From Halorubrum tebenquichense DSM 14210 (GTDB lineage Archaea; Halobacteriota; Halobacteria; Halobacteriales; Haloferacaceae): 44,621 nucleotides of DNA. The stretch covers positions 1 through 44,621 of the forward strand of contig NZ_AOJD01000034.1 in assembly GCF_000337415.1 (NCBI RefSeq). Direction: 5' to 3'. Shown in pieces: positions 1 through 44,621 of this stretch. The first letter of the stretch is position 1; every line of letters begins with the position of its first letter. The translations under genes and the position numbers were made by a program. The notes beneath the pieces are model-generated. The model had not been told where the DNA came from and did not search any database. It saw only the letters and a program-made list of their open reading frames with translations.

Positions 1-206
1 GCGGTCGCTGTGCGGTGCGGGGCGGGACTCGAAGGGGCAGCCGGGAGGCGGGCAGAGGCGACGTAAGCACCGCAGGAGCGAACGGAGTGAGCGACGAGGA
101 GCACAACGAGCGTCTGCCCGCCTCGCGACTGGGGCTTCGGTGGTGTTCGTGGCGATCGGTCGTTTATAAATAGCAACCTCGTATCGCCGAGCGACTGGGG
201 CTTCGG
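1..206 (+). repeat. Dispersed structured repeat, copy A (left end cut by window edge)
   Basis: This stretch shares long near-identical segments with 17790-18077, including GACTCGAAGGGGCAG and the tail GCGACTGGGGCTTCGG. The arms at about 45-56 and 113-124 form a perfect 12-bp stem, followed by a weaker extension. The tail motif GCGACTGGGGCTTCGG occurs twice (125-140 and 191-206) with a TTTATAA box (163-169) between the two. No coding sense is apparent. The left part of the element lies outside the window. It could be a noncoding RNA gene family or a MITE-like element. Confidence 0.7.
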
Positions 207-17658: not shown

Positions 17659-18077
17659 TTTATAAACCGACAGCGGTGGCGCGCGCCTCCGAGGCCGCAT
17701 CGCGGCCGAGGAGCGTCGCGCGAGGGAGTCAGTCGCCGGAGCGAAGCGACGGCGACTGACGAGGCTGGGGAGGCGCGAGGTGCTGTGCGGAGCGGTGCGG
17801 GCGGGACTCGAAGGGGCAGTCGCGAGGCGGGCGGAGGCGTTCACGAGAGCGGAGCTCTCGTGAGCCAATCAGAACGCGGAGCGCTCTGCCGACGACGGAA
17901 GCAGCGTGGCGCTACGCGCCACGGGCAGCCGGCGGCTTCGCCGCCGGCGGCACCGCAGGGAGCGAGCAGCGCGAGCGAGGAGCACAGCGAGCGTCTACCC
18001 GCCTCGCGACTGGGGCTTCGGCGGTCGTCATCGCCGATCCGCGGTTGGTTATTTATAAGTGGACGACTGGGCTTCGG
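17659..18077 (+). repeat. Dispersed structured repeat, copy B (most complete)
   Basis: Most of the 517-bp gap between RNase P RNA and htpX is this element. It opens with TTTATAA (17659-17665) followed by AGCGGTGGCGCGCGCCT, shared with copy C at 44514. AGTCGCCG (17731-17738) pairs with CGGCGACT (17750-17757). The outer arms 17809-17831 and 17998-18020 form a 15-bp helix, a 3-base G-rich internal loop and a further 5 bp. Between the arms are three perfect hairpins that copy A lacks. The tail GCGACTGGGGCTTCGG (18006-18021) is repeated as GACGACTGGGCTTCGG (18062-18077) after a second TTTATAA (18052-18058). No protein-coding sense is apparent. It may be a transcribed structured RNA or a MITE. Confidence 0.75.
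17841..17948 (+). repeat. Array of three perfect hairpins inside repeat copy B
   Basis: Three inverted repeats, each with a three-base loop: TCACGAGAGC-GGA-GCTCTCGTGA (17841-17863, 10 bp), CGTGGCGC-TAC-GCGCCACG (17905-17923, 8 bp) and GCCGGCGGC-TTC-GCCGCCGGC (17928-17948, 9 bp). At the matching place copy A has only a few bases. Stem sequences differ but loop size is constant, suggesting selection for structure or insertion of palindromic units. Confidence 0.85.
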
Positions 18078-44513: not shown

Positions 44514-44621
44514 AGCGGTGGCGCGTGCCTGTGAGCGGCCGGAGGCCGCGAGTAGGGAGGGACCTCCGATTCTCGCTGGAGTCGGTCGCCGAGCGAAGCG
44601 ACGGCGACCGACGAGGCTGGG
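44514..44621 (+). repeat. Dispersed structured repeat, copy C (right end cut by window edge)
   Basis: AGCGGTGGCGCG(T)GCCT and the closing GACGAGGCTGGG match copy B at 17672 and 17758. GGTCGCCG (44584-44591) pairs with CGGCGACC (44602-44609); copy B has AGTCGCCG/CGGCGACT at the same place, so the outer base pair changed on both sides at once (A-T to G-C). GCGGCC-GGA-GGCCGC forms another stem near 44534-44548. No TATA box precedes this copy. Confidence 0.7.

Follow-up and report, generated by a model that had tools for sequence, protein, structure and literature searches.

The paired base change between two repeat copies of the window (the whole stretch of DNA analysed here, i.e. the complete contig G000:C34 of Halorubrum tebenquichense with 44,621 nt) is one column of a hairpin, P2, which belongs to a non-coding, dispersed element of Halobacteria with several hairpins. 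The stems of P2 and of a further module, P4, covary far beyond controls. Structure and strand bias of the element are well supported, its RNA form is likely, and its function we infer. We favour, with moderate confidence, the reading that the + strand folds, most likely as RNA, that its pairing is selected, that its stems turn over fast, and that this structured RNA spread as a non-autonomous repeat.

According to the genome copies, the element comprises about 245 nt, lies in intergenic regions and has the layout GCGGTGGCGCG-P1-GCGCGAGGGA-P2-GAGGCTGGGGAGG-link-GGGACTCGAAGGGGC-P4-GGGGCTTCGG. Its parts are, in order, P1, P2, a G-rich link, P4 and a tail. The following features were located in the window:

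1..140, + strand: copy A, link and P4 module; 5′ part lost at the contig start
161..206, + strand: tail of copy A, with a TTTATAA box plus another small hairpin unit, GCCGAGCGACTGGGGCTTCGG
17659..17666, + strand: AT-rich box TTTATAAA preceding copy B
17673..18021, + strand: copy B, whole element P1-P2-link-P4, located 3′ of the RNase P RNA gene
17673..17727, + strand: P1 hairpin region of copy B and GAGGGA motif
17728..17760, + strand: hairpin P2 of copy B, GTCAGTCGCCG..CGGCGACTGAC, with the matching pair A17731-T17757
17761..17802, + strand: G-rich link of copy B, starting with GAGGCTGGGGAGG
17803..18021, + strand: P4 module of copy B, GGGACTCGAAGGGGC..GGGGCTTCGG, made larger by additional hairpins; covariation in the family
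17839..17895 (end approximate), + strand: double-palindrome cassette in the P4 loop of copy B, resembling palindromes near Y1 transposase genes
44515..44621, + strand: copy C, truncated by the contig end and limited to the 5′ part of the element; 3′ arm of P1 abnormal
44581..44612, + strand: hairpin P2 of copy C, GTCGGTCGCCG..CGGCGACCGAC, with the swapped pair G44584-C44609

In the partial copy at 1-140, which we take to be copy A of the first-pass annotation, P2 is absent. Both contig ends (1-140 and 44515-44621) lie inside element copies, and therefore these repeats break the assembly. At copy C, the contig breaks inside the repeat and the sequence resumes at contig C35 of the same genome. 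Directly 5′ of P2 in this copy, GGGACCTCCGATTCTC (44550-44580) is a hybrid hairpin half that is not self-complementary, while its relatives are full hairpins; copy C may thus in part be an assembly chimera. An AT-rich box was found upstream in 91 of 181 regions, starting at −16 to −12 in 63 of those 91, and a TTTATAA-like box follows the element in 109 of 243 tails. With a start about 12–16 nt before the element, the upstream box is too close for an archaeal TATA box starting RNA at P1. Tails (loci L012, L016 and L017, and 161-206 of the window) repeat a small unit consisting of a TTTATAA box, about 15–20 nt, a hairpin like GCCGAGCGGC, and GGGGCTTCGG. P4 segments are 110–129 nt long in 179 of 215 cases, with CGAAG/CTTCG, CAAAG/CTTTG or GAAAG/CTTTC as outer helix. 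Flipped inner modules were seen three times in P4 and twice in P2; in loci L242, L244 and L291, the P4 arms enclose an inner part in opposite orientation, as would result from a flip of the hairpin arm. The 5′ end of P4, GTGGGACTGAAAG, seems to resemble the 3′ part of haloarchaeal CRISPR repeats.

The base change reported in the first-pass annotation was confirmed, as A17731-T17757 of copy B and G44584-C44609 of copy C were both read in the sequence. The arms named there (GGTCGCCG..CGGCGACC in copy C, AGTCGCCG..CGGCGACT in copy B) all lie within P2. The pair had been described as the outer one; it is instead the fourth pair of an 11-bp stem, because GTC/GAC adds three pairs outside. The loop core, taken to be the same in both copies, is nearly so, with one G more in copy B than in copy C. 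The arrangement GTCGCCG-N4..30-CGGCGAC occurs four times in the window (copies B and C, and two unrelated places) versus a shuffle mean of 0.85, and none of 100 shuffles reached four. The difference between B and C is not one traceable event, because the copies are different loci and carry two alleles among many. An accident of two copies as source of the compensatory change was ruled out, the pattern being family-wide.

For analysis of P2, 260 anchors were collected, from which 58 without GCGAGGG within 60 nt, two with N and four shorter than 20 nt were dropped. The 196 copies kept comprise 157 distinct sequences, of which 156 fold as one hairpin. With related copies taken as independent, as in all covariation and mismatch counts of this study, 97.6% of cells in 32 distinct 35-nt hairpins are paired versus 86.6% after shuffling and at most 54.8% after sliding, and two-sided change occurred in 50 cells versus 12.9 in shuffled sets; none of 500 shuffles was as high in either measure. 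The covariation score of these 32 hairpins was 0.350 versus 0.139 shuffled, above all 500 shuffles and all slid controls. Further pair types were less clear (16 versus 13.8 shuffled, reached by 25 of 500). In the column of the swapped pair (4-32), 26 hairpins have GC and six AU, with no intermediate. Single-sided changes at an equal or higher rate, named in the first-pass annotation as the result that would speak against its claim, were sought in 15 hairpins: 209 two-sided changes keep Watson-Crick pairing versus 25 one-sided changes that break it, next to 49 one-sided changes keeping G.T and 22 other two-sided changes.

The same shuffle controls were applied to P4. Pairing extends to 96.2% of cells in 33 copies, of which nine come from outside the genus, versus 80.7% shuffled; 78 cells show two-sided change versus 20.0, and the score is 0.429 versus 0.141, with none of 500 shuffles as high. 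Two-sided changes affect 11 of 17 pairs versus 7.8 shuffled (reached by 4 of 500). The inner helix is unbroken in the 33 copies, with CG 25, GC 7 and UA 1 at pair 47-85, and CG 27, UA 5 and one gap at pair 50-82. Thereby, paired columns of P2 and P4 covary beyond controls, as is expected of a structured noncoding RNA. Of the earlier proposal of a selected stem in RNA, the selected stem is supported by this covariation, while RNA as its form appears likely.

Known RNAs were considered as identity of the element and rejected: the window holds no tRNA, RNase P alone was found by the Rfam search of the window, and no Rfam match over the element exceeds its cut-off. In three loci searched at E ≤ 1, the match over an element was to GA-cis (L013, 1605-1696); with 26.9 bits versus a gathering cut-off of 34.7, it is probably a chance match from GA-rich sequence.

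Change at orthologous sites was followed in a close species (genome G015), with which the window and contig C35 are collinear. All seven element sites in the compared stretch are common to both species in the same orientation, and no extra site of G015 lies inside it. P2 is readable in both species at five sites, namely B, C and three sites of C35, and at each of them the two species differ. At the four alignable sites, 2, 4, 3 and 4 of 11 pairs are changed, i.e. 13 of 44 pairs two-sidedly and none one-sidedly, with flanks about 95–99% identical; two of these sites, B and C35:9196, exchange A-T and G-C at the swapped pair itself. At the fifth site (C35:11150), hairpins of 21 and 39 nt permit no pair-by-pair alignment. 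Over a broader set of species, the + strand P2 anchor was found at the site 3′ of RNase P in 15 of 30 loci (14 distinct), and at the site after a metX-like gene (our reading of a Pfam Abhydrolase_1 match) in 18 of 30 loci, all distinct; in both sets, a few P2 are incomplete or carry extra hairpins. Judged by eye, five of the 30 metX-like loci lack the element although the downstream gene is the same, and a remnant is left in one further locus. Since some orthologous gaps are without the element, sites turn over slowly.

Also P4 could be compared at an orthologous site, behind one orthologous gene in genomes G236 and G204, each with two matches (E ≤ 1e-4). Four pairs differ on both sides and remain Watson-Crick; of two others, one is changed to G.T and the other to C.A. 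The inner part, in contrast, is identical at 53 of 55 positions, and the 5′ flank at 90.4%. Two-sided changes in genomes with only two matches therefore fit point compensation under selection. Among 43 copies of the own genome, eight P2 alleles were each found at two loci, always with links that differ; this combination of common P2 alleles and different links suggests module copying.

Isolated mismatches were used to analyse which strand folds, with 30 RNase P RNA loci of the genus as wobble control. G.T exceeds A.C by 17 to 2 in P2 and by 47 to 13 in P4b, where 29 of the 47 wobbles fall on one position (otherwise 18 to 10), compared to 124 to 4 in RNase P. If the arms were only copied and mutated as double-stranded DNA, G.T and A.C would be expected in equal numbers; the wobble excess therefore indicates that one strand, the + strand, appears to fold. 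This bias does not distinguish RNA from single-stranded DNA. G.U is rare in P2 (33 of 1941 pairs versus 164 of 2955 in RNase P), which counts against the favoured reading. The G.U fraction of P4 was rejected as a test between RNA and DNA, P4b with 5.4% equalling RNase P with 5.5%; it is uninformative because recombination of two alleles can make T.G, too. The central triloop of P2 is GNA in 112, TNC in 2 and neither in 43 of 157 hairpins, and C-GNA-G was found in 109 of 158 apical loops; among 223 internal loops, 106 are GA/GA and 31 GGA/GGA. In 444.6 kb of the genome, no 2x2 loop is more common in triloop hairpins than GA/GA, its complement included (37 occurrences versus 7.2 shuffled). C-GNA-G triloops and tandem G.A mismatches are motifs of stable DNA minihairpins, and by this analogy they would suit DNA at least as well as RNA.

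A purely mutational origin of the paired changes would have gene conversion or template switching across the palindrome rewrite both arms without any selection for pairing. P2 indeed outpaces its flanks at the four aligned sites (13 of 44 pairs versus about 95–99% identity), one-sided changes are lacking there as expected if both arms are rewritten together, identical P2 alleles occur at different loci, and arms are flipped. However, equal numbers of G.T and A.C are predicted, yet P2 has 17 to 2; moreover, the P4 stem changed two-sidedly at four pairs in genomes with two recognisable copies, unpaired motifs are conserved, and the inner helix is unbroken. We regard mutation without selection as improbable. 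Less easily dismissed, although still unlikely, is an element acting at the DNA level, the + strand of which folds as single-stranded DNA during replication, in transposition or as cruciform and is bound by protein, as are the hairpins of REP/RAYT or IS200/IS605. Its triloops and its GA/GA and GGA/GGA loops resemble stable DNA minihairpins, inner modules are flipped (three in P4, two in P2), the element is multi-copy and non-coding, and the cassette of copy B resembles palindromes near Y1 transposase genes. This cassette is 79–84% identical to palindromes in three Y1 transposase loci (L131, L134 and L142), and a BLAST of Y1 loci against the own copies matched the inserted cassette only, in 3 of 47 copies (copy B and two others).

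Against a DNA-level element stand the distribution of the transposase and the stability of the sites. Of 51 genus genomes, 41 have a Y1 (PF01797) match; no match was found in the other 10 carriers, including G015, which has 70 core motifs and shares all seven sites; a hairpin needed by a transposase, as proposed initially, thus receives little support. The best full-length identity among the 47 own copies is 92% (median 85%), i.e. none are near-identical, and neither core nor link motif was found in 13 loci examined, 12 Y1 loci and L082, which we read as IS1341-like. P4 might also be a small mobile repeat of the SMR-A type and the longer element a nest of such repeats. In favour of this, P4 has mostly 110–129 nt (179/215), long inverted ends and many copies, 11 of 13 P4 copies of low-copy genomes have no link motif within 300 nt upstream, and three copies in genome G160 lie in a unit with inverted ends. 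However, the inner loops of P4 are conserved and its inner helix covaries, GGGTGGGACT directly precedes P4 in 6 of the 13 low-copy copies with nothing alike after it, the core motif is absent from the examined Y1 loci, and sites are stable, so that we consider such a nest very unlikely.

The preferred reading, a selected structured RNA, assumes that the + strand would fold in single-stranded form, with RNA as the likeliest molecule, and that its stems would be kept paired by selection. Stems would turn over fast for two reasons: compensated changes are at an advantage, and gene conversion transfers hairpin modules from one copy of the element to another. The element might act as a transcribed structured RNA or as a folded part of intergenic transcripts; it would have spread as a non-autonomous repeat and now sit at fixed places, less often between two promoters. 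More tentatively, we propose a Halobacteria-wide family of structured noncoding RNAs with 1 to about 170 copies per genome around a conserved P4 core, to which Halorubrum and family relatives add P1 and P2, with stems rewritten and the grammar kept. This grammar would be a stem, a tandem G.A, a short stem and a GNA triloop, on one strand.

Exact matches to the core GGGACTSRAAGGGGC number 86 in the Halorubrum genome under study. Five further members of the genus have 70, 169, 120, 98 and 77, and four genomes from elsewhere in the family have 11, 20, 65 and 73; the backward control gave 0 in all ten. By BLAST, a contig-end query had at least 43 matches in the own genome (40 of 228 candidates scored) and a second element query at least 84 (40 of 257 scored). 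One element copy matched 52 of 52 genomes searched of the genus, which is Halorubrum according to named records; other carriers among the matches listed are Haloparvum, Haladaptatus, Haloarchaeobius and Halosimplex. The layout is mostly kept in eight family relatives examined. At E ≤ 1e-5, a P4 covariance model matched 146 of 194 genomes of the class, in 53 of 65 genera. A sample of the phylum gave 23 matching genomes among 196, all belonging to the same order as the window. In ten genomes chosen because they had few matches, P4 was matched one to three times each; among their 13 copies, the exceptions to the lacking link motif are L334, with link and P1-like motifs, and L341, with a one-mismatch link match. 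Core pairs in head-to-head orientation, 200–340 bases apart, were seen six times in genome G066, e.g. C1:566112(-)/566448(+), and at least four times in G106, e.g. C1:265942(-)/266261(+). Viruses and plasmids were rejected as main home, since one element copy matched 0 of 50,697 phage records and 6 of 72,556 plasmid records.

Gene neighbours were taken from an ad hoc gene caller. Of the copies with two called neighbours (n = 165), 45 lie in gaps between convergent genes, 101 in tandem gaps and 19 in divergent ones; a further 24 copies, not among the 165, lay at edges. Gaps of more than 150 nt, element-bearing ones included (n = 542), comprise 104 convergent, 295 tandem and 143 divergent ones. 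The divergent share is thus 19/165 for elements versus 143/542. Orientation to genes in tandem gaps is unbiased (43 same, 58 opposite), which is evidence against a cis-acting element of fixed strand; a strand-fixed 3′-UTR or riboswitch role was rejected on this ground.

No published description of the element was found in the literature, with thin coverage of subscription journals. If the preferred reading is right, a conserved structured element for which no description was found is present in most haloarchaeal genomes, and in Halorubrum it is so frequent that both contig ends fall in copies. It would also offer a natural experiment on stems that change both arms while staying paired, in which the strand test can separate selection from gene conversion.

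According to PMC3119063, SMR-A repeats of Haloquadratum walsbyi are about 110 bp long, non-coding and many-copied with prominent inverted ends; they are mobile and insert without target duplication in near-terminal palindromes of PATE/IS605 elements. Measured against this description, P4 is alike in length (110–129 nt in 179/215 segments), in its inverted ends (a GAAAG/CTTTC-type outer helix with a stem behind), in copy number and in lacking coding capacity. In contrast to SMR-A, the 13 loci examined showed no insertion in PATE/IS605 palindromes (no core or link motif), the inner helix of P4 covaries, and in Halorubrum and family relatives the P4 module is linked to P1-P2. As to recent movement, no evidence was seen in the stretch compared, where 7/7 sites are common to one close relative. 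MITEs carry the terminal inverted repeats of a known transposon and a target duplication. Ends that may be of this sort, GTGTTCAGA/TCTGAACAC, were found around G160 copies only; there, three P4 copies (L341, L345 and L350) lie in a unit with these ends, imperfect in L341 and L350, which resembles a MITE that picked up P4. PATEs (palindrome-associated transposable elements), as described in PMC3119063 and PMC10544981, are haloarchaeal, palindrome-rich, non-coding and repeated; they have no terminal inverted repeats, and their ends are common to IS605-type transposons. The element has the first four properties in common with them; unlike PATEs, P4 has inverted ends, and in the 13 loci the likeness to IS605-type near-terminal palindromes is confined to the cassette in 3 of 47 copies.

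Bacterial REP/BIME and REPIN sequences are intergenic hairpin repeats with many copies, as is the element, and REP/RAYT systems feature a conserved tetranucleotide at the hairpin foot. Unlike REP/RAYT, the element has no associated Y1 transposase and is kept in genomes without a Y1 match. It further differs from REP/BIME and REPIN in being longer, three-part and class-wide, with conserved inner loops.
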